The notes beneath the pieces were generated by a model, which worked only from the letters and a program-made list of their open reading frames with translations, did not search any database and was not told where the DNA came from. Made by a program: the position numbers and the translations under genes. Positions 956 to 31,068 of a stretch of 32,417 nt of DNA are shown here, piece by piece. Location: contig CALLMJ010000105.1 of the NCBI GenBank assembly GCA_938006875.1, forward strand, positions 1 to 32,417. Reading direction: 5' to 3'. This stretch comes from an uncultured Bacteroidia bacterium (GTDB lineage Bacteria > Bacteroidota > Bacteroidia > J057 > CALLMJ01). Position 1 is the first letter of the stretch. Every line of letters begins with the position of its first letter.

Positions 956-1336
956 TTATCTAATTTCAAAATTTACGGTATCGATTTTATAGTTTCCTTC
1001 ATGGTCTGGAAAAATTTTTAATTCAAATTGGAAGAAGCCCTTCAAAGTATCTGGTGACCAAGTATAACTTTTTTGTAAACTTTTTGTATGAACATGTTCA
1101 TTTTGAATTTTGAGTTGATTTTTAACAGGTAATTGCAAAATTCTAAATTCGTAACCATGAATTTCTGAATTTGCAGTAGCTTCAAACTCAAATTCAATTT
1201 TTTCAGATTTATTAAAAATTTGGTTAGGAGTAGGCTTTTTGATCTTAAATTGTAAAGTGCTTGATGAACTCAAATGTTCTTTTTTACAAGCAAATAAAGT
1301 AATTAAGAAACCAATTAAAAAAAATATTTTTTTCAT
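956..1336 (-). CDS. small lipoprotein of unknown function
   Basis: A 126-residue protein starting with a short lipoprotein signal (two lysines, a hydrophobic stretch, then LFAC with lipidation cysteine C17). The mature part is beta-rich with alternating hydrophobic residues and resembles the Ig-like extracellular domains common in Bacteroidota lipoproteins, but I cannot name a family. Its ATG overlaps the stop of the upstream DUF962 gene by four bases (ATGA), so the two are translationally coupled and form an operon. The location is probably the periplasmic face of a membrane. Confidence 0.7.
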   Translation of the reverse strand: MKKIFFLIGFLITLFACKKEHLSSSSTLQFKIKKPTPNQIFNKSEKIEFEFEATANSEIHGYEFRILQLPVKNQLKIQNEHVHTKSLQKSYTWSPDTLKGFFQFELKIFPDHEGNYKIDTVNFEIR

Positions 1337-1638
1337 ATTTTGACTTTTCCGTTAAGAATATCCCAATACATAATAAAATCGGAGCAAAAACTATAAAGAG
1401 GGTATTGAAAAGTAGCAGGTTTATTTTTTTCAAAAAAGAAATGCCCTATCCAAGCAAATCCATATCCTGAAATAGGAATCATTAAAAAGTACCAGAAATT
1501 TAAAGTGTAAAGAAAGAACCCCAAAAAAATAAATACTAATGTAGTACCCAAAAAATGAAGTCTTCTACAGGTTAAATTGGAATGTTCAGACAAATAAAAT
1601 GGATAAAATTCTTTAAGACTTTGATACTTTTTTTCCAT
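1333..1638 (-). CDS. DUF962 / Mpo1-like membrane protein
   Basis: A 101-residue protein with the DUF962 hallmark near the N-terminus: YPFYLSEHSNLTCRRLHFLG at 12-31, which includes H19 and H28. Two hydrophobic segments follow (about 32-46 and 48-65), then WIGHFFFEKNKPATF with H66. The yeast relative Mpo1 is an iron-dependent dioxygenase acting in 2-hydroxy fatty acid alpha-oxidation. That activity is knowledge of the family and is not demonstrated here. It is first gene of a two-gene operon with the lipoprotein, with a well-formed promoter directly upstream. Confidence 0.85.
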   Translation of the reverse strand: MEKKYQSLKEFYPFYLSEHSNLTCRRLHFLGTTLVFIFLGFFLYTLNFWYFLMIPISGYGFAWIGHFFFEKNKPATFQYPLYSFCSDFIMYWDILNGKVKI

Positions 1639-1661: not shown

Positions 1662-1692
1662 CAAATTTAGAAAATAAAATTGGATTTGTCAA
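1662..1692 (-). promoter_or_regulatory. Bacteroidota-type promoter for the DUF962-lipoprotein operon
   Basis: On the minus strand a TTG (1690-1692) is followed after exactly 20 bases by TAAATTTG (1662-1669), matching the -33/-7 pattern of the Bacteroidota primary sigma factor. The -7 box ends 23 bases before the ATG. Confidence 0.7.
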
Positions 1693-3081
1693 TAGAGTCT
1701 ATAAATAATGAAACGTTCATTTTCAAATTGCTTTTGATAGTTATCTAATAACTGTATATTTTCATTTTTTTCAATTAAAATCCATTTGCAACCATTATTT
1801 TGAATATTTTGTAAAAAATCATAATTTTTGAAATCCTCATCATTAGCATTCCAACCTTTTCTATGCGTAAAATAAATTAATTGTGGATTACCATTTCCAT
1901 TAGCAGCGATTAAATCATTTTTAGTAGAAAAACCATCAAAGATTTTTTCAAGTTCTAGTTTTGAGTATTCTTGTGGTTCAATAAAAAAATCATGTTGTTG
2001 ATTGGCAATACTTTCTAAAATCCCGATACATAAAATAAATATTTTTATTTTGGAATTTGAAGTTTTCTCTAAACCAAAACCTAACCATAAAGCCATTATC
2101 GGATTAAAAGGAATCATGTAATAATTATGATGATAAAAAAAATGCCCAGATTTTATAGCGTATAAAACAAAAACACCTGAATACAAAATAGTTATTAAAA
2201 TTAAATGGTTTTTTTTTGAATTTCAATATTAGAATAAATCCATAAAGGCTTAATCCAAAAAGAATAAAACTATTAAAAGAATGAAAATAAAAGTTTTCCA
2301 TAATTTTTGGTAGGTTATGAGAAAGCTCTTCAAATCCTTGTGAAAAACTTTTTCCTAAATTATACCAATTTCCATAATTTTCAGATAAATAAGGATTCCA
2401 TAAAAAATACCATAAATAAACTAAGATGCAAGTAAAAACCATAAAAACAGATTGAACCCACATGATTTTTATTGTAGGCTTCAATTTCCACCAAAAAAGT
2501 AACACAAAAGAAAATCCTATAATAGCAGGAATTTTAGCAAGGCTACCCAAACTTGTAAATAGAAAAAATAGAAGCAATTTTTTCCAATGTTTTTTTATAA
2601 GATATTGATAACCAAAATATAAGCCTATAAACATTAAAGCCATACAAAATGTATCAGGCATCATTTTTCTAGAAAAAACAAACCATGTAGAAGTTAAAAG
2701 ACCTATTGAACTATAAAATGCAAGATTTTCATTGAAAACAACTTTAATCAGTTTATAAAAATAAAAAATACCCAAGGAACTAACAATCAAGTTGATAAGT
2801 CTTCCGTACCAATGTTGATAACCAAAAATGAAACTTAATAAAAAATGTAAATAATTCAATATAGGGAATTCCATACCAATAATGCCTGTACCGCCATTGT
2901 TCTCATCTACTCTAGGAAAAAAAATATTAGAATCAATTTCTAAAAAGTTTCTTGATACCATTAAGCCAGTAATTTGCCTCCAATTATGTCCAGATTCTAA
3001 TGGTGGGTCTGTTATGCCCCATAATCTAAACATAAAGAATAGAAATATCCAAAATTCAATTTTTTTTAAATATTTTAACAT
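1689..3081 (-). pseudogene. GT39-type membrane glycosyltransferase, frameshifted at a homopolymer
   Basis: Two frames together form one roughly 464-residue multi-pass membrane protein. The 5' part (3081 to 2125) opens with a membrane segment and the loop DPPLESGHNWRQ, resembling the catalytic loop of GT39/ArnT-like glycosyltransferases that use lipid-linked sugar donors, followed by many transmembrane segments. After a run of nine A (minus strand; T9 at 2209-2217) this frame decays into 30-odd unconvincing residues. The other frame continues naturally with a hydrophobic helix and GHFFYHHNYYMIPFNP, then a soluble C-terminal part ending at 1689. Removing one A restores a single frame. It could be a real pseudogene, a phase-variable or slippage-expressed gene, or an assembly error. 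It follows the DegT aminotransferase gene by 25 bases, fitting a role in surface glycan synthesis. Confidence 0.75.
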
Positions 3082-3106: not shown

Positions 3107-4213
3107 TCAACTTCCATAATATGCTTGAATTTTTTCACAAACATATTCAATTTGAGAATCTGAAAGACCTGGATAAAGAGGTAAAGAAAGCATTTCATCT
3201 GCTAATTGTTCTGCAATCGGAAAGTCACCTTTTTGAAAATTTAAGTGTTGATAAGCTCTTTGTAAATGAGGGGGTACAGGGTAATGAATCAGTGTATCAA
3301 TTTCATTTTTCTTTAAAAAATCCATTAATTCATTTCTTTTTGGGCACCTAATCACAAATAAATGATAAACATGTGTATTGTTTTCAAGGGTTTGGGGTAA
3401 ATGAATATCAGATAGATTTTTAAGATTTTCAAAATATTTTTTTGCTAAACGATTTCTTTCTTGATTCCATTCTTGTAAATGCTTTAGTTTAATTAACAAT
3501 AAAGCCGCTTGAAGCTCATCTAAACGAGAATTATAACCAATCACATCATTGTAATAACGTACTTTTGAACCATAGTTCCTATACATTTTGATTTGTTCGT
3601 AATAATCATTTGAAGAAGTAGTAATAGCACCAGCGTCTCCAAGAGCACCTAAATTTTTTGAAGGATAAAAACTAGTTGCATTAATATGGCCAAAAGTGCC
3701 CGTCATTTGATGACTATGTAAAGCACCATGAGCTTGTGCATTATCTTCAATGACCATCAAATTATACTTTTTAGCTACGTTCATAATTTCGGACATGTTG
3801 GCGGCTTGTCCATACAAATGAACGGGTAAAATTGCTTTGGTATTAGCAGTAATTTTCTCTTCAATCTTTTGAGGATCAATGTTATAAGTAATAAATTCAG
3901 GTTCAACAAAAACAGGCTTCGCTTGAACATAACTAACTGCCAAAACCGTTGCTATGTAAGTATTAGAAGGAACAATTACTTCATCATTTTTACCAATATT
4001 TAAAATTCTTAACGCTAAATATAAAGCATCTAAGCCACTTGCAACGCCAGCACAATAATTTATATTATGAAATTTTGCATATTCTTCTTCAAATTCTTTG
4101 ACTTTATTGCCGAGTACATAATAATTAGAATCTAAAAAAGCCTCAAAAGCATTCAAAAATTGATTTTTTAAAGGTTGATGTTGAGCATCAAAATTTAAAA
4201 AAGGAACTCGCAT
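3107..4213 (-). CDS. DegT/DnrJ/EryC1/StrS-family sugar-nucleotide aminotransferase
   Basis: A 368-residue PLP aminotransferase of normal length. It starts VPFLNFDAQHQPLK, has the cofactor-binding EDNAQAHGA (D157, Q160), the Schiff-base lysine in SFYPSKNLGALGDAG (K186), and the substrate-side segment YNSRLDELQAALL. This family converts keto-sugar nucleotides to amino sugars for polysaccharides or glycoproteins; FdtB-type dTDP-3-amino-sugar enzymes are the nearest I recall, but the exact sugar cannot be read. The start abuts the yqeY-like stop with no gap, and a membrane glycosyltransferase follows. No other sugar-nucleotide genes are adjacent, so the substrate must come from elsewhere in the genome. 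Confidence 0.88.
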   Translation of the reverse strand: MRVPFLNFDAQHQPLKNQFLNAFEAFLDSNYYVLGNKVKEFEEEYAKFHNINYCAGVASGLDALYLALRILNIGKNDEVIVPSNTYIATVLAVSYVQAKPVFVEPEFITYNIDPQKIEEKITANTKAILPVHLYGQAANMSEIMNVAKKYNLMVIEDNAQAHGALHSHQMTGTFGHINATSFYPSKNLGALGDAGAITTSSNDYYEQIKMYRNYGSKVRYYNDVIGYNSRLDELQAALLLIKLKHLQEWNQERNRLAKKYFENLKNLSDIHLPQTLENNTHVYHLFVIRCPKRNELMDFLKKNEIDTLIHYPVPPHLQRAYQHLNFQKGDFPIAEQLADEMLSLPLYPGLSDSQIEYVCEKIQAYYGS

Positions 4214-4666
4214 TTAGCTTAATAGTTTTTTTATAAGTTCTGAAACCCATTTATTATCAGCTCTACCCATTATTTTTGGAGTTAAAGACTTCATTACTTT
4301 ACCCATATCTTTGATGGTTGTTGCATTTTCTTGTTGAATAGTTTCTTTTATAAGGGTTTCTAATTCTTCTTGAGTGAGCGGTTGAGGTAAATATTTTTCA
4401 ATGATTTCAATTTCTTCTTGTTCTACTTTTGCTAAATCCTCTTTACCATTTTTTGTGTAAATATCTAAAGATTCTTTACGTTGCTTAATGAGTTTTTGAA
4501 GCATAGCAATTTCTTCTTCGGTAGTTAAATCTTTTGAATTTCTACCCTCAGAAGTTTCAGCTATAATAATAGCCGCTTTTATAGCTCTTATTCCACGCAA
4601 CGCTTTTTCATCTTTTGCTTTCATTGCAACTTTTAAATCTTCATTAATTCTTTCTTTTAGCGTCAT
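4214..4666 (-). CDS. GatB/YqeY domain-containing protein
   Basis: A 150-residue protein with the complete YqeY layout: a basic helical N-terminus (MTLKERINEDLKVAMKAKDE), the RGIRAIKAAI helix, the KQRKESLDIY region and the C-terminal IKDMGKVMKSLTPKIMGRAD. It resembles the tail domain of GatB and is thought to be linked to tRNA or amidotransferase biology; the exact role is unknown. I place the start at the ATG at 4664-4666. The in-frame TTG 21 bases further upstream lies inside the TAAATTTG promoter box (4685-4692) and would add seven non-conserved residues. Confidence 0.88.
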   Translation of the reverse strand: MTLKERINEDLKVAMKAKDEKALRGIRAIKAAIIIAETSEGRNSKDLTTEEEIAMLQKLIKQRKESLDIYTKNGKEDLAKVEQEEIEIIEKYLPQPLTQEELETLIKETIQQENATTIKDMGKVMKSLTPKIMGRADNKWVSELIKKLLS

Positions 4667-9612: not shown

Positions 9613-12600
9613 TTAATTTTTTATAATGATTGTTTTGCCTATAATATTATTTACTTCAATTTCATGTCCATTTTCTAAATAGTTAACCCATTCAATAGAT
9701 TTTGCTAAGGTTTCTGTTTGAATATAATTTTTCCATTCTTCTATGGCATCTTTCCATTCTTCTTGATTTTGAACGTGTATTAAAATGGTATCAGTTACAT
9801 CAAAATTTAAGTCTTTTCTTAAATTTTGGATTCTATTCACAAAATCTCTTGCTACTCCTTCATTTTCTAATTCTTTTGTAATTTGTAAATCAACAGCAAC
9901 TGTAATGGCATGTTCAGAAACTACTGCCCAACCGGGTATATCTTGATTGAATATTTCTACCTCATTGGGTTGTAATTCATAGTCCAATTCTCCAATTTTA
10001 ACATTCAAAGAATTTCCTTTTTCTAATTTTTTAATTTCCTCATGAGAAAGACTTTCTATAGCTTGTTGTGCAAATTTTAATTGTGCCCCTAATTTAGGAC
10101 CTAACAATTTAAAATTCGGTTTGATTTTTTTGATGATGGTTGTATCTTCTTCATTTGGAATTACTAATTCTTTGATATTCACTTCTGAAAGTATTAAATC
10201 TTTTGCTTTTAATAAAGCTAATTTCATTTTTTCATCAAGAGCAGGAATTAATAATTTAGAAAGTGGTAATCTTACTCTAAGTTGATGTTTTTTTCTTATA
10301 GAATGAACCAAAGAACATATCTTTTGAGCAATTTCCATTTGTTCTTCTAAATCTTTTTGGATATACTCTTTCTGAACCTTAGGAAATAATGCAATATGAA
10401 CAGAATTTTTATCATTCCATGAAGAGTAAGTTAAAGATTTATAAAGCCATTCCGCAGAAAAAGGTGCAATTGGAGACATTAACTGGGTTACCTTCAATAA
10501 ACATTCATGTAAGGTTTGATAGGCAGCAATTTTATCTTGGTTCATTTCTCCTTTCCAAAATCTTCTTCTAGATAAACGGACATACCAATTAGAAAGTTGG
10601 TCAATCACAAATTCTTGAATAGCACGAGCAGCAGTGGTAGGGTCATAGTCATTTAAAGCATTCTCAACTTTTTCCATTAAACTATTCAATAATGAAATTA
10701 TCCATTGGTCTAATTCAGAGCGATTATGATAAGGAACAAAATTGTATTTATCGGTAGTAAATCCATCTAAATTAGCATACAAAGCAAAAAAGTTGTAGGT
10801 ATTGAAAAGAGTTCCAAAGTACTTACGGATAGTTTCCTGCAAAGTATCTAAATTGAATTTTAAATTTTCCCAAGGTGGAGTATTTTCCATCATATACCAA
10901 CGAGTAGCATCTGCTCCATATTTTGATAAAGTTTCAAAGGGGTCTACGACATTACCTAAACGTTTGGACATCTTAACGCCGTCTTTATCTAACAATAAAC
11001 CATTGGCAATGACATTTTTAAAGGCGATGGAATCTTTATAAAGCGTAGCAATAGCATGTAAAGTAAAAAACCAACCACGGGTTTGGTCTATCCCTTCTGC
11101 AATAAAATCTGCTGGAAATACATTTTCAAAATTATCTTGACTTTCAAAAGGATAGTGAACTTGTGCATAAGGCATGGCTCCACTATCAAACCAAACATCA
11201 ATTAAATCATTTTCACGTACAAAAACTTGTTCATAGTTGGTATCGGGAATCAGCACAACCCTATCAATAAATGGTTTATGCAAATCAATTTGTTCAATAT
11301 TTAAATCAGATACTTTTTTTATCCAACCTTTTTTCAGCCAATCCTGAATAACTTCATTAGAATTAGGTGAATGACCAGCATTTGCCATTCCCATACTATA
11401 TTCAAGATATTTTGCTTTGGTACGTATAGATTTTGGGTCACCAGAAATGAGTTCTTGATATTTATGGTCAGTATTTTGGAAACTTGAAATTTCATTTTCT
11501 AAATCTGGGTTATTTTCTAAAATTTCATAACCTACTTTTTGGAGTTCTTGAATTGAACCAATTGAATATTGTTTATCATTACTAACCCAAACTGGTAGAG
11601 GAATCCCCCAGTAACGAGAACGGCTTAAATTCCAATCCACTAAATTTTCTAGCCAGTTCCCAAAACGTCCTGTACCTACGCTAGCTGGTTTCCAGTTGAT
11701 GGTTTTATTGAGTTCAACTAAACGGTCTTTATAAGCTGTTGTTTTTATAAACCATGATTCTAAGGGATAATACAAAATGGGCTTATCGGTACGCCAGCAA
11801 TGAGGATAGTTGTGTTCATATTTTTCTACCTTAAAAGCGCGGTTATTTTGTTTGAGATAAACAGAAATATCTACATCTAAATTTTGATAGTTGGGGTCAT
11901 TGGTATAATTTTTTACATAGCGATTACCAAATAATTGAATTTGTGAAATATATTTACCTTGTTTATCTACGATAGGTTCACCATCAAAAAGTACTGCAGG
12001 AATACCATTTTGTTTAGCTACGCGCATATCATCGGCACCAAAAGTGGGAGCAATATGCACTATGCCTGTACCATCTTCTGTAGTTACAAAATCACCAATA
12101 ATAACCCTAAAAGCTTTTTGGGCTTCTTCTGGATATGCTTTTGCCCAATCCACAAATAAAGGCTCATATTTTTTACCTTCTAAATCTTGACCCTTAAATT
12201 CTTCTAAAATTTGATAAGGAATAATTTTTTGTCCTGCTTGATATTGATTAAAATCTTGGTTTTCACCGTCTTTAGAAAAGTAAGCACCTAAACGGTCTTT
12301 TGCAAGAATAACTATAATGGGTTGATGAGTATAAGGATTAAAAGTTTGAACTTTTACGTAAATAATATTTTTACCAACCGCTAAAGCACTATTAGCAGGA
12401 AGCGTCCATGGAGTAGTTGTCCAAGCTAAAAAGAAAGTATTATCTGTACCATTCATTAAAAATTGAGCAACACAAGAGGTATCTTTAACCATTTTATAAC
12501 AACCTGGTAAATTCAATTCATGTGAACTTAATCCTGTACCAGCGGCAGGTGAATAAGGTTGAATAGTATACCCTTTATAAAGTAAATTACGCTGATGGAA

Positions 12601-13113
12601 ATTTTTTAAAATATACCAAACACTTTCTATGTATGCATTATCAAAAGTGATATAAGGATTTTTGAGGTCTACCCAGTAGCCCATTCTTTCGGTAAGTTCA
12701 TCCCATTTATCTTTAAATTTTAGAACGTCTTCACGGCAAGCTTTGTTATATTCTTCAACAGAAATAATTTTTCCAATATCTTCTTTGGTAATACCTAATT
12801 TTTTTTCAACTTGTAACTCAACCGGCAAGCCATGAGTATCCCAACCTGCTTTACGGTTTACTTTAAAACCTTTTATAGTTTTGTAACGGCAAAATAAGTC
12901 TTTTAAAGTACGAGACATGACATGGTGTATCCCTGGAAAACCATTGGCAGAAGGAGGTCCTTCATAGAAATTAAAAGTTGGAGAACCTTCTCTTTGAGAA
13001 ATACTTTCTTCAAAAATTTGATGGTTTTTCCAATAATTAAGAACTTCCGTTTCTATTTCAGGAAGGTTAAATTGCTTTTTGGTAGGATAAATTTGAGTTT
13101 CTACTTTACTCAT
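9613..13113 (-). CDS. ileS: isoleucine--tRNA ligase, type 2 (GXHH signature)
   Basis: A 1166-residue class I aminoacyl-tRNA synthetase charging tRNA-Ile. PPSANGFPGIHHVMSRTLKD (53-72) is the first ATP motif. Here HIGH is replaced by GIHH (61-64): the first histidine is glycine and the glycine is histidine. The second motif is KMSKR near 714, in GVKMSKRLGNVVDPF. A long CP1 editing domain lies between them and the anticodon-binding and type 2 C-terminal regions follow, without a zinc ribbon. Length fits type 2 (eukaryote-like) IleRS. Published work links GXHH in some type 2 enzymes with very high natural mupirocin tolerance. It is first gene of the operon with dksA-like and lspA. Confidence 0.97.
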   Translation of the reverse strand: MSKVETQIYPTKKQFNLPEIETEVLNYWKNHQIFEESISQREGSPTFNFYEGPPSANGFPGIHHVMSRTLKDLFCRYKTIKGFKVNRKAGWDTHGLPVELQVEKKLGITKEDIGKIISVEEYNKACREDVLKFKDKWDELTERMGYWVDLKNPYITFDNAYIESVWYILKNFHQRNLLYKGYTIQPYSPAAGTGLSSHELNLPGCYKMVKDTSCVAQFLMNGTDNTFFLAWTTTPWTLPANSALAVGKNIIYVKVQTFNPYTHQPIIVILAKDRLGAYFSKDGENQDFNQYQAGQKIIPYQILEEFKGQDLEGKKYEPLFVDWAKAYPEEAQKAFRVIIGDFVTTEDGTGIVHIAPTFGADDMRVAKQNGIPAVLFDGEPIVDKQGKYISQIQLFGNRYVKNYTNDPNYQNLDVDISVYLKQNNRAFKVEKYEHNYPHCWRTDKPILYYPLESWFIKTTAYKDRLVELNKTINWKPASVGTGRFGNWLENLVDWNLSRSRYWGIPLPVWVSNDKQYSIGSIQELQKVGYEILENNPDLENEISSFQNTDHKYQELISGDPKSIRTKAKYLEYSMGMANAGHSPNSNEVIQDWLKKGWIKKVSDLNIEQIDLHKPFIDRVVLIPDTNYEQVFVRENDLIDVWFDSGAMPYAQVHYPFESQDNFENVFPADFIAEGIDQTRGWFFTLHAIATLYKDSIAFKNVIANGLLLDKDGVKMSKRLGNVVDPFETLSKYGADATRWYMMENTPPWENLKFNLDTLQETIRKYFGTLFNTYNFFALYANLDGFTTDKYNFVPYHNRSELDQWIISLLNSLMEKVENALNDYDPTTAARAIQEFVIDQLSNWYVRLSRRRFWKGEMNQDKIAAYQTLHECLLKVTQLMSPIAPFSAEWLYKSLTYSSWNDKNSVHIALFPKVQKEYIQKDLEEQMEIAQKICSLVHSIRKKHQLRVRLPLSKLLIPALDEKMKLALLKAKDLILSEVNIKELVIPNEEDTTIIKKIKPNFKLLGPKLGAQLKFAQQAIESLSHEEIKKLEKGNSLNVKIGELDYELQPNEVEIFNQDIPGWAVVSEHAITVAVDLQITKELENEGVARDFVNRIQNLRKDLNFDVTDTILIHVQNQEEWKDAIEEWKNYIQTETLAKSIEWVNYLENGHEIEVNNIIGKTIIIKN

Positions 13114-13116
13114 TGA

Positions 13117-13252
13117 ATCAACGATATTTGTACTTAAAAAATTTTCGCAAATTTCGTAATTTTTTTAATACAAAATAAAATTTTAACGTACAAACTTTAA
13201 ATTTGTAAGATTAAATGGATTAATCTCCACTAGGGGTTTGTATTTTCGCTAT
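13117..13252. other. ileS upstream region with a small palindrome
   Basis: AT-rich stretch. A near -7 box GAAATTTG (minus strand, 13148-13155) precedes ileS but differs from the consensus at the first base and lacks a well-spaced TTTG. AGATTAA-ATGGA-TTAATCT at 13208-13226 is a perfect 7-base stem, possibly the end of a transcript from the decayed region to the right. I see no gene here. Confidence 0.4.
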
Positions 13253-13372
13253 TCACTTTGTTCTACCCTTTTCCCGATTTTTTAAAGTGTTCAAAGCAAG
13301 TGCTTTCTTAGCTGATATATTCTTCACATAATACTTAAAAGCCTTGCCTTTTGAGGTATTTCTATCAATTTT
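13253..13372 (-). pseudogene. short C-terminal protein remnant, family unknown
   Basis: A minus-strand frame with no start codon encodes a basic tail containing GKAFKYYVKNISAKK and ending KNREKGRTK before a TGA at 13253-13255. Composition looks protein-like rather than random, and it overlaps the end of the T9SS-domain remnant. It may be a fragment of another lost gene or a chance frame. I do not recognise it. Confidence 0.25.
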
Positions 13373-13789
13373 TTACAATTTTTTCAAAATATCCCTTTCC
13401 ATTAAAGAATATTTTAAAAAAATATATTCCTTTTAGTAATGTTTGGAGAGAAAATGATTTTTCTTGATATTCTTCATTTTCATAGATGATTTTTCCTAAA
13501 TAATCCGTAATGGTTAGTGAAAATGCTTCTTGCTGAAAATTTTCAAAAAATACAATACTTTTCAGTAGGATTAGGATAAATTTTAATATTAGATTTTTGA
13601 TTTTGAGAATTTTGAGAGGTCAGACTTAATTCTTCAACCAAAATAGGTAAACTATTTAAATTATTGAAATTAAAACTAGATTGATTTACTGAAAAAGTAT
13701 CAATTTGGAAGTTGGCATTGTGTTACCATTATTTACTAAACTTGTAGGAACAATTTTGGTAACTTGAATTTGTTTTTCAAATTGAAAAA
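13365..13789 (-). pseudogene. remnant of a secreted protein with a T9SS type A sorting domain
   Basis: Reading the minus strand in three successive frames gives one continuous protein end. The first frame has IQVTKIVPTSLVNNGNT. After a frameshift near 13720 the next has NANFQIDTFSVNQSSFNF and then IKIYPNPTEK. After a second shift near 13545 comes FSLTITDYLGKIIYEN, then LLKGIYFFKIFFNGKGYFEKIV and a stop. The IYPNP motif, the DYLGKxIY strand and the GIYxxKI...KIV end are the standard T9SS C-terminal domain that targets proteins for export and surface anchoring. No start or upstream body survives, because pdhA begins at 13824. The gene is dead and truncated. Confidence 0.8.
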
Positions 13790-13796
13790 ATAGTTA

Positions 13797-13813
13797 TAAA
13801 TTGCGGCAAAATT
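13797..13813 (+). promoter_or_regulatory. 17-base promoter element of pdhA, shared with the SDR at 6136
   Basis: TAAATTGCGGCAAAATT ends ten bases before the pdhA ATG and is identical to the element at 6144-6160 on the minus strand. The position suggests a core promoter or an operator overlapping the transcription start. Confidence 0.45.
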
Positions 13814-13823
13814 GTAACCACTC

Positions 13824-14834
13824 ATGGCAAAAAAATCAAACAAAATTTTAACTTACAGTAAAGAAACTGCTTTAAAATGGTATCATCAAATGATGCTTAT
13901 GAGAAGATTTGAAGAAAAAGCAGGTCAATTATATGGACAACAGAAAATTAGAGGTTTTTGCCATTTATATATAGGGCAAGAAGCTGTAGCTGCTGGTGTA
14001 GAATCAGCTATAACTCCTGATGATTATGTAATTACTGCTTATAGAGATCATGGTCAAGCATTAGCAAGAGGGGTACCAGCAAGAGCATGCATGGCGGAAC
14101 TTTACGGAAAATCTACTGGTTGTACAAAAGGAAAAGGCGGTTCTATGCACTTTTTTTCTAAAGAACATAACTTTTTAGGTGGGCACGGAATTGTAGGTGG
14201 GCAAATTCCTCTTGGTGCTGGTGTAGCTTTCGCCATTAAATATAGGGGTGAACAAAAAGTATGTATATGTTTTTTTGGAGATGGCGCTGCAAGGCAAGGT
14301 GCTCTTCATGAAGCATTTAATATGGCTATGATGTGGAAACTTCCTGTAGTTTTTATTTGCGAAAATAATTTGTATGCTATGGGTACCTCCGTTGAAAGAA
14401 GTTCTAATGTTACAGATATATGGAAAATAGGTTTAGCCTATGATATGCCTGCCGAACCAGTAAATGGTATGAGTGTTATTGACGTCTATGAAGCAACTTC
14501 AAAGGCTGTTCAAAGAGCTAAAAATGGTGAAGGCCCTACTTTATTAGAAATAAAAACCTATCGTTATAGAGGTCATTCAATGTCTGACCCCGCTAAATAC
14601 CGTACCAAAGAAGAACTAGAGCAATATAAAGAGTTAGATCCTATTGCTCATATCAAATCTTATCTTCTAGAAAATCAATTGGCAACCGCTGAAGAAATTG
14701 AAGCTATCGATGAAGAAATCAAAAATATTGTAGCAGATTGCGTAGAATTTGCTGAAAATAGCCCCTACCCTGACCCCTCCGAGCTTTACACAGATGTTTA
14801 TGCTGAACCTAATTATCCGTTTATAATGGAATAA
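13824..14834 (+). CDS. pdhA: pyruvate dehydrogenase E1 component, alpha subunit
   Basis: A 336-residue thiamine-diphosphate enzyme subunit that decarboxylates pyruvate and passes the acetyl group to E2. RRFEEKAGQLYGQQKIRGFCHLYIGQEA-type residues lie at 27-54, DYVITAYRDHG follows, and the ThDP/Mg signature runs from GDG (152-154) to ENN (180-182). YRYRGHSMSDPAKYR is the conserved phosphorylation-loop region. Length matches bacterial heterotetrameric E1 alpha. No E1 beta or E2 gene is adjacent, and a strong terminator follows at once, so it is monocistronic. A branched-chain 2-oxoacid E1 alpha is less likely given the close match to PdhA. Confidence 0.93.
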   Translation: MAKKSNKILTYSKETALKWYHQMMLMRRFEEKAGQLYGQQKIRGFCHLYIGQEAVAAGVESAITPDDYVITAYRDHGQALARGVPARACMAELYGKSTGCTKGKGGSMHFFSKEHNFLGGHGIVGGQIPLGAGVAFAIKYRGEQKVCICFFGDGAARQGALHEAFNMAMMWKLPVVFICENNLYAMGTSVERSSNVTDIWKIGLAYDMPAEPVNGMSVIDVYEATSKAVQRAKNGEGPTLLEIKTYRYRGHSMSDPAKYRTKEELEQYKELDPIAHIKSYLLENQLATAEEIEAIDEEIKNIVADCVEFAENSPYPDPSELYTDVYAEPNYPFIME

Positions 14835-14841
14835 ATGTAGT

Positions 14842-14882
14842 TTTTTCAGGATTTAGCAATTTAATTGTTAAATCCTGAAAAA
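14842..14882 (+). terminator. rho-independent terminator of pdhA
   Basis: TTTTTCAGGATTTA (14842-14855) pairs with TAAATCCTGAAAAA (14869-14882), and the stem continues inward through GCAAT/ATTGT, leaving a 3-base loop. This gives about 19 base pairs, starting seven bases after the stop codon. Its A and T flanks would let it work in both directions. Confidence 0.85.
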
Positions 14883-15029
14883 TATTCAATTGGGTTATAA
14901 AAACTTTTACAAATACTTCAACTTGAATAGAATTTTTTAATTTGAATAATCATGAATACATAATGTATAATCATAAACACAGAGATTTTCAAATCTGTAT
15001 TTTTTTATATTTACTGTTTTAAAAAGCTA

Positions 15030-16136
15030 ATGTTACCTGAAATTACTACAATTTTTTTTTGTTTAGTTTTTCCTTTTATAATTTATTTTTTTCGTGAAAC
15101 TCTACAAACATATTTAAAAATTGACAATATTTTGTTGGCTTATGGAACAGGAATGCTTTTAAAGCTTGTTATACAAGACTTTTTTTCTCAAAATATTTTG
15201 CAAGGTTTTATTTATGTAAGTATTCCATTAGCAATGCCTCTGTTAATTTTTCAAGCGGATTTTTTTTCATGGCTTAAAAATGCTCCTTTAACTGTTAAAA
15301 GTTTTATTATTGCTTGCTTTTCAACTGGTTTAATAGGTTTTTTATTAGGAAAATATTTTATTCAAGATGAAATTGGAAAAAAAATTATTGGAATGTTAAT
15401 TGGTGTTTTTATAGGTGGGACACCAAATTTGAACGCAATTGGGTTAAGTTTAAACGTTTCTTTTGAAGTCATTGCAATTGCTAATACCGTAGATTTAATG
15501 GCTAGCAGCATTTTTTTATTATTTATGCTTTTTTTAGCAAAACCATTATTATCTAAAATTTTACCATATCCATTTCCCTATAATATTATTCATAAAAATC
15601 AATCTTTTCAAGATTATCAAGAAAAATTTTACCAGAAAATTCTGCCTTTAATTATTTCTATTCTGATTTTAGGGTTATCTGCTGGATTAAGTTTTTTAAT
15701 ATTTAACGATTTAAAAATCCCTTTTGTTATGTTAGTGATAACCTTGTTAGGTGTTTTGGGTTCATTTAATCCCAAAATAAGAAACCTCAAGATGAGTGAA
15801 ATTTATGGAAATTTTTTTATTACAATTTTTTGTTTCTCAATGGGATTAGTTTTAGATGTACGTCAAATTTTTCAACATTTTGATACTTTATTTTTTGCAT
15901 CTTTTGGATTAATATTTATCAGTTTAGGATTACAAGTAATATTGAGCAGAATATTTAAAATCAATTCGGAAATAATGATGATTTGTGCAGTAGCATGTGT
16001 GATGAGTCCTGCATTTGTTCCAATGTTTGTTAAGCATTTTCAAAATGATGAATTACTTTTACCTGGTTTAACAACAGGATTAGCAGGTTTTGCAGTTGGA
16101 AATTTACTGGGGTTAGGAATATACGCACTTTTATAA
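15030..16136 (+). CDS. DUF819 family integral membrane protein
   Basis: A 368-residue protein with about ten hydrophobic segments. IGGTPNLNAIG (128-138) in the fourth or fifth helix matches the glycine/asparagine signature of DUF819 (YjcL-like), and a similar segment, LTTGLAGFAVGNLLGLGIY, closes the protein. The inverted symmetry suggests a transporter, but no substrate is known for the family. A small hairpin followed by a T-run (14979-15007) lies just upstream. It appears monocistronic, with a terminator at 16161-16181. Confidence 0.75.
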   Translation: MLPEITTIFFCLVFPFIIYFFRETLQTYLKIDNILLAYGTGMLLKLVIQDFFSQNILQGFIYVSIPLAMPLLIFQADFFSWLKNAPLTVKSFIIACFSTGLIGFLLGKYFIQDEIGKKIIGMLIGVFIGGTPNLNAIGLSLNVSFEVIAIANTVDLMASSIFLLFMLFLAKPLLSKILPYPFPYNIIHKNQSFQDYQEKFYQKILPLIISILILGLSAGLSFLIFNDLKIPFVMLVITLLGVLGSFNPKIRNLKMSEIYGNFFITIFCFSMGLVLDVRQIFQHFDTLFFASFGLIFISLGLQVILSRIFKINSEIMMICAVACVMSPAFVPMFVKHFQNDELLLPGLTTGLAGFAVGNLLGLGIYALL

Positions 16137-16160
16137 AAGAAGAATTCTCAAAAATGGTTT

Positions 16161-16181
16161 AATTTAGAATTGTTCTAAATT
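16161..16181 (+). terminator. terminator of the DUF819 gene
   Basis: AATTTAGAA-TTG-TTCTAAATT is a perfect nine-base stem with a 3-base loop, 24 bases after the stop, followed by a T-rich stretch (16185-16194). Confidence 0.7.
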
Positions 16182-30474: not shown

Positions 30475-31068
30475 ATGATTGAATATTTGAAAGGCAATTT
30501 AGTATTAATTGAGCCTTCCTTTATGATTTTGGATTGCAATGGTATTGGATATGGATTAAAAATTTCTTTATCCACTTATGAGGATTTTCATCAGCATTTA
30601 CAAAAAGATATAAAGGTATTTACATATCTCCAAATTCGTGAAGATGCACATATTTTATATGGTTTTTCTTCTGAAGAAGAAAAAAAAATCTTTTTAATGC
30701 TATTATCAATTTCAGGCGTTGGAGGAAACACTGCTTTAACAATTTTGTCTGGTTTATCTGTTCAGGAAATATACCAAGCCCTTGAACAACAAAATGTTAT
30801 CGCTTTCAAATCCATTAAAGGAATTGGCGAAAAAACCGCTCAAAGAATTATTTTAGAACTCAAAGATAAATTCAAATCTTTAAAGTCAACCAACACATTT
30901 GAAAAAATGAATGAGCAAGAACAATTAAAATTAGACGCCATTCAGGGTCTTGTGAATATGGGATTGAAAAAACAAGATGTTGAAAAAAGAGTTGAAGAAC
31001 TTCTAAAACAAGGTATTAACAAAATTGACGAAATAATAAGAGGTGTTTTAAAACTTAATAAAAAATAA
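30475..31068 (+). CDS. ruvA: Holliday junction branch migration protein RuvA
   Basis: A 197-residue protein that binds four-way DNA junctions and loads the RuvB motor. Domain I begins MIEYLKGNLVLIEPSFMILD with VFTYLQIREDAHILYGF near 48-64. The two helix-hairpin-helix motifs are SISGVGGNTALTILSG (78-93) and IKGIGEKTAQRIILELKDK (114-132). The C-terminal domain III (about 150-197) that contacts RuvB is present. Length is standard. ruvB and ruvC are not adjacent. Confidence 0.97.
   Translation: MIEYLKGNLVLIEPSFMILDCNGIGYGLKISLSTYEDFHQHLQKDIKVFTYLQIREDAHILYGFSSEEEKKIFLMLLSISGVGGNTALTILSGLSVQEIYQALEQQNVIAFKSIKGIGEKTAQRIILELKDKFKSLKSTNTFEKMNEQEQLKLDAIQGLVNMGLKKQDVEKRVEELLKQGINKIDEIIRGVLKLNKK

Follow-up and report, generated by a model that had tools for sequence, protein, structure and literature searches.

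Genes whose frames change at a run of As have been described in several bacteria. In Blochmannia, whose genome is AT-rich, frameshifts in poly(A) tracts trace to a single indel in genes that are otherwise in frame, and their rescue by transcriptional slippage was argued from conservation between lineages together with earlier demonstrations (PMC3017870). The tssM1 gene of Citrobacter rodentium is interrupted past an A11 run, its canonical protein is longer, and transcriptional frameshifting by insertion of As was shown there experimentally (PMC4256274). Transcriptional slippage on A9 or A10 at the frame transition of dnaX is treated for Thermus by Antonov et al. (2013, PMC3711429), who already describe two-ORF dnaX genes with 10 As.

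The locus considered here is a membrane glycosyltransferase gene that breaks at an A9 run. The window is the whole contig of 32,417 bases (29.4% GC), part of a draft genome of 2.87 Mb in 185 contigs. The explanation given a rather better than even chance is a recent, non-programmed one-base slippage mutation, real in the organism, which truncates an ordinary single-frame PMT_2 gene.

One gene in two frames

The features of the window that enter into the argument are the following.

1333..1638, minus strand: downstream neighbour, an open frame for an Mpo1-like membrane protein (PF06127, E 1.2e-39)
1689..2222, minus strand: second frame, coding for the last third of the protein, HHNYY loop and conserved C-terminal region included (open-frame translation)
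2125..3081, minus strand: first frame, the N-terminal two thirds of a PMT_2 / GT-C glycosyltransferase (ORF and PF13231, E 1.8e-11)
2209..2217, minus strand: A9 run (T9 on the plus strand) at the frame break (exact run match in the sequence)
3107..4213, minus strand: upstream neighbour across a 25-nt gap, a DegT/DnrJ/EryC1 aminotransferase gene (PF01041, E 1.9e-113)
15052..15060, plus strand: control T9, coding strand of an uninterrupted DUF819 gene, 15030..16136 (ORF and run search)
30680..30688, plus strand: control A9, coding strand of uninterrupted ruvA, 30475..31068 (ORF and run search)

The first frame runs from an ATG at 3081 to a stop at 2125 and encodes 318 aa, ending 27 codons past the A9 run. 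The second occupies 2222 down to its stop at 1689 (177 codons plus the stop), and its last upstream stop lies just 5' of the run. It has no internal stop in these 177 codons, a region in which the other two frames have many, and the earliest start codon in it, TTG at 2186, falls within the homologous region. Both frames are open together across 95 nt alone (2222..2128), with the A9 near the beginning of this overlap. Of random 95-nt intervals placed in the window, 0.96% meet a run of at least nine, so that break and run are unlikely to coincide by chance. A script applied to the window's runs of at least seven flagged only two as possible switch points, both in the overlap of this gene: the A9 and a T8 (2135-2142). 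The frame shift is placed at or adjoining the A9 and not at the T8, because second-frame residues straight after the A9 already match relatives. The aminotransferase gene and the glycosyltransferase are probably carried on the same transcript.

An earlier note, made from the sequence, had put a T9 tract (A9 on the coding strand) at 2209-2217 at the frame junction, and this is exact. It had also proposed a single gene for a membrane glycosyltransferase, divided by one base in a homopolymer, a proposal that full-length relatives back. The read-through protein, of approximately 463 aa, aligns through the junction with all 12 chosen relatives (one of them, L027, with a 3-residue insertion nearby), and none of the 12 ends at the first-frame stop. 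The same-genus ortholog (genome G001) is a single 464-aa ORF, with 67% and 66% identity to the first and second halves, respectively. Matches to the second half were found in 62 of 395 searched genomes, own genome counted. Among the 63 matches in other genomes, 61 lie within one open frame of at least 466 aa; the exceptions are in G296 (335 aa) and G048 (311 aa, with one internal TAA). Homologues stopping where the first frame stops had been named as the finding that would tell against a split gene, and with 61 of 63 in long frames the proposal holds. A scan of contigs, from which records of this or a very near genome may be omitted, brought up the same-genus genome along with two loci that are more distant, but not a second genome of the species.

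Columns invariant in all 13 aligned sequences lie on both sides of the break. In the second half they include H318, Y320, Y321, P324 and P327, which bear out the impression that the HHNYYMIPF loop is conserved, as well as N360, Q361 and W410. Compared with its full-length homologs the frame is interrupted, as that of a pseudogene is, and automatic annotation would report two pieces of what is a single enzyme in the family.

To what family does the enzyme belong? The first frame matches PMT_2 with 44.9 bits against a curated cut-off of 26.1, and all 13 aligned members match PF13231 at E 0.01 or better. The second frame alone gives no Pfam match above the curated cut-off, and NCBIfam at E 0.01 yields no family for the protein. 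The nearest solved chain is ArnT (5ezm/5f15), which the family profile matches at just E 0.55. For the same-genus ortholog, AlphaFold2 run on a 4-row alignment gave a model with a pLDDT of 53.6. The candidate CAZy families are GT39 and GT83. The description 'GT39-like' stands at the superfamily level but not as GT39 proper, as the evidence stops at PMT_2. Judged by its sequence, the gene is filed as a putative member of the PMT_2 / GT-C class, not of GT39.

Has the second half decayed? Among columns invariant in 11 outgroups, none of 39 before the break and none of 17 after it is changed, with the identical result in the same-genus ortholog. Second-half identity to these outgroups is 0.347-0.438 here vs 0.333-0.460 in the ortholog, and is lower here in 3 of the 11 comparisons, the largest gap being that with L023 (0.383 vs 0.440). 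The further disabling changes or relaxed constraint of a pseudogene are therefore not seen in this part, there being no stop in 177 codons and no change in the 17 invariants. An undecayed second half leaves three options for the break: a recent origin, rescue, or no real break at all.

A runs at the junction and elsewhere

At the junction the same-genus ortholog reads CGTAAAGAGAAATCT, in which the longest A run is A3. The homologous place has A7 in L023 (genome G241) and A4 in L020, and A9 is present there in none of the 20 relatives' loci (L003, L004, L020-L037). Relatives are rich in K and R here (RKEK, KKEK, ERKK); the A9 is thus plausibly a by-product of Lys codons in a window of 29% GC. 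As the relatives' junctions lack it, the A9 is not a programmed site that these genes conserve.

The earlier note had offered four causes: phase variation, transcriptional slippage, a new pseudogene and a sequencing error. Conserved programmed slippage is argued against by the A3 of the ortholog, the 20 loci that lack A9 at the junction and the long open frames of 61 of 63 matches. Phase variation finds a slippage-prone repeat within the frame, the A9 at the break, and is backed by this run alone, the tract not being kept in the orthologs (A3 in the same genus, A4 in L020, A7 in L023). This leaves a recent indel or a consensus error. Ribosomal +1 frameshifting was also considered and set aside, a conserved site being wanting. 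As a separate observation, an in-frame T9 lies at another position of the intact same-genus gene (L003 2141-2149), which seems to have different neighbours.

How unusual is a broken frame at a long run in this genome? The run survey covered 20 stretches (375,998 of 2,868,732 bases), in which ORF tables were judged by eye for 19 (L050 has no run of at least nine), and the window was treated by script. A frame switch was taken to be two same-strand frames meeting at a run, so defined that a break concealed near an ORF end might escape. The 20 stretches hold 55 runs of at least nine As or Ts, of which 14 were counted outside genes and 41 inside longer ORFs. Three of the 14 (L053 909, L055 4204, L060 13979) fall in short ORFs (68-82 aa) with longer ORFs overlapping them on the opposite strand; these short ORFs were taken as spurious. 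The 41 in-ORF runs, 26 of A and 15 of T on the coding strand, include one at a frame switch. With the window added, 42 of 44 in-ORF runs of at least nine are uninterrupted, which speaks against an assembly that is weak at homopolymers in general; the two breaks are in dnaX and in this glycosyltransferase gene.

Within the window, A9 matches number 3 vs a mean of 34.2 in 100 dinucleotide shuffles, overlapping matches counted. Codon shuffles of the window's 32 chosen ORFs (2000 shuffles) give 7.2 +/- 1.8 coding runs of at least nine vs 3 observed, with 1.2% of shuffles at 3 or fewer. Coding runs of 8 number 24 vs 18.5 expected, and 5% of shuffles reach 24. The threshold at nine is sharp, with longer runs depleted and runs of 8 slightly over. 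It is what selection against slippage would give, the sample being small (compare PMC1088944).

Other runs and overlaps came to light in the survey. In L044, an A12 (10674-10685) lies two bases past the ATG of a 1834-aa ORF (10669-16173, plus strand), a possible N-terminal slippage or expression feature. Two same-strand ORFs of L046 (18644-19165 and 19075-19734, plus strand) overlap by 91 nt with no run of at least nine, and may represent a further frame break. An A11 in L060 (13979-13989), 5' of a 169-aa ORF (14048-14557), is probably intergenic.

The break in dnaX (L042 4470-5639, minus strand) is at an A10 at 4479-4488 (G000:C1:24479-24488). The gamma frame stops right past the A10, and the open frame goes on as tau would, the continuation having been read in G000. 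Strong dnaX matches were found in 24 of 26 genomes, and 16 were inspected as loci. The run is A10 in every one of these (G000, G001, G002, G004, G005, G006, G008-G013, G015-G018). Four of the 16 (G004, G006, G010 and G012) have a long open frame of 625-733 aa, and in the remaining 12 it is short, at 373-422 aa, which makes a neat natural comparison of in-phase and out-of-phase arrangements. Going by the conserved A10, slippage on A runs is probably in use in this lineage, and this keeps rescue of the glycosyltransferase among the possibilities.

Origin of the break

How did the break arise? In the preferred reading, a recent mutation, a gene of approximately 463 codons would have carried a run of As in its Lys codons, and this run would have slipped by one base in the assembled allele. 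Slipped-strand replication at the run may have thrown the frame, in a direction judged from homology. Translation would then stop 27 codons on, to give a 318-aa product from which the HHNYY loop and all of the conserved C-terminal third are missing, a loss that very probably leaves it inactive. The genome has four other PMT_2 genes with open frames of 504-619 aa, and a paralog of this kind could mask the loss of the split gene.

Several points weigh against a recent mutation. The missing decay equally fits an error or a rescued gene. The genome has mutS and mutL, so mutation at the A9 is not necessarily frequent. Identity to the ortholog (alignment A1) is lower after the break (113/176, 64%) than before it (203/287, 71%), although the identity of both same-genus species to most outgroups also drops past the break. 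Antonov et al. (2013, PMC3711429), in their treatment of frameshifts confirmed by homology, expected singletons to be sequencing errors and not genuine indels.

This expectation equally favours the main rival, next after the recent mutation though distinctly less probable: a sequencing or assembly consensus error, with the gene intact in the organism and the run miscounted in the contig. The undecayed second half and the fragmentation of the draft into 185 contigs are in keeping with such an error, as is the depletion of coding runs of at least nine in the window with runs of 8 slightly over. But the 42 of 44 in-ORF runs that show no break, and the flagging of only two runs of at least seven, both in this gene, speak for a low error rate at such runs.

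Could the run be a switch? Phase variation would make it a reversible ON/OFF control of a surface-glycan enzyme, caught by the assembly in the OFF state. A slippage-prone run inside a membrane glycosyltransferase gene, adjoining a DegT-family aminotransferase gene, is the kind of setting in which this could be looked for, and the preserved downstream part and the A7 at the homologous place in G241 are compatible with it. It is nevertheless improbable, given the orthologous junctions described above, the occurrence of runs of at least nine also in ordinary genes (ruvA, dnaX), the open frames of the four other PMT_2 genes, the shortness of the run and the presence of mutS and mutL.

No better placed is rescue by RNA polymerase slippage at the A9, whereby a leaky gene would give a mix of short and full-length enzyme, as in genes of Blochmannia and Buchnera, Citrobacter tssM and Thermus dnaX. 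In its favour, this genome retains the A10 at the dnaX gamma/tau junction, a run shared by all 16 inspected loci, of which 4 have the long frame in phase and 12 do not, and decay is missing past the glycosyltransferase break. The window is depleted in runs of at least nine, as is expected where polymerases slip (Baranov 2005, PMC1088944). Yet rescue needs the loss of one A or the gain of two, where dnaX is satisfied by one inserted A, and PMC6260861 reports no deletion rescue by E. coli RNA polymerase on poly(A) runs, whose lengths may differ from A9. Also against it, the two-frame layout is absent from the aligned relatives, and a long A run needs no function, as 25 other A-coding runs of at least nine in the sample and the ruvA run are in uninterrupted ORFs. 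In a related version, the A9 would be tolerated because the RNA polymerase of the lineage slips on long A runs (compare the conserved dnaX A10), and short and full-length glycosyltransferase would come from one fixed template; this is marginally more doubtful still. Phase variation and slippage rescue are each rated low because nothing measured calls for them, and the tests for a conserved tract and for a two-frame layout were negative.

Two separate functional proteins from a long-standing split can be practically dismissed: both frames are open, but no aligned relative stops at the first-frame stop, conserved columns lie on both sides, and the first start of the second frame falls inside the homologous region.

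Comparison with described systems

The glycosyltransferase locus is filed outside both programmed slippage and proven phase variation. With the Blochmannia genes it shares a single indel in an A run, an AT-rich genome and a gene otherwise in frame; the argument there drew on conservation between lineages and on earlier demonstrations, whereas here there is one genome, no conservation, and a break known from DNA alone. Like tssM1, it is interrupted past an A run and has a longer canonical protein, but the Citrobacter tract is an A11 with insertion of As, and the A9 would need one A lost or two gained. With dnaX it has in common an A run at the frame transition; the dnaX A10 is conserved (16 of 16 loci), whereas the A9 is not. 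The case would matter more only if reads or RNA gave both lengths, since slippage at the A10 of dnaX is probably at work in this organism. Single-base slips in A runs are a familiar way in which genes of AT-rich genomes become broken or leaky, and the present case adds a new instance of this familiar event.
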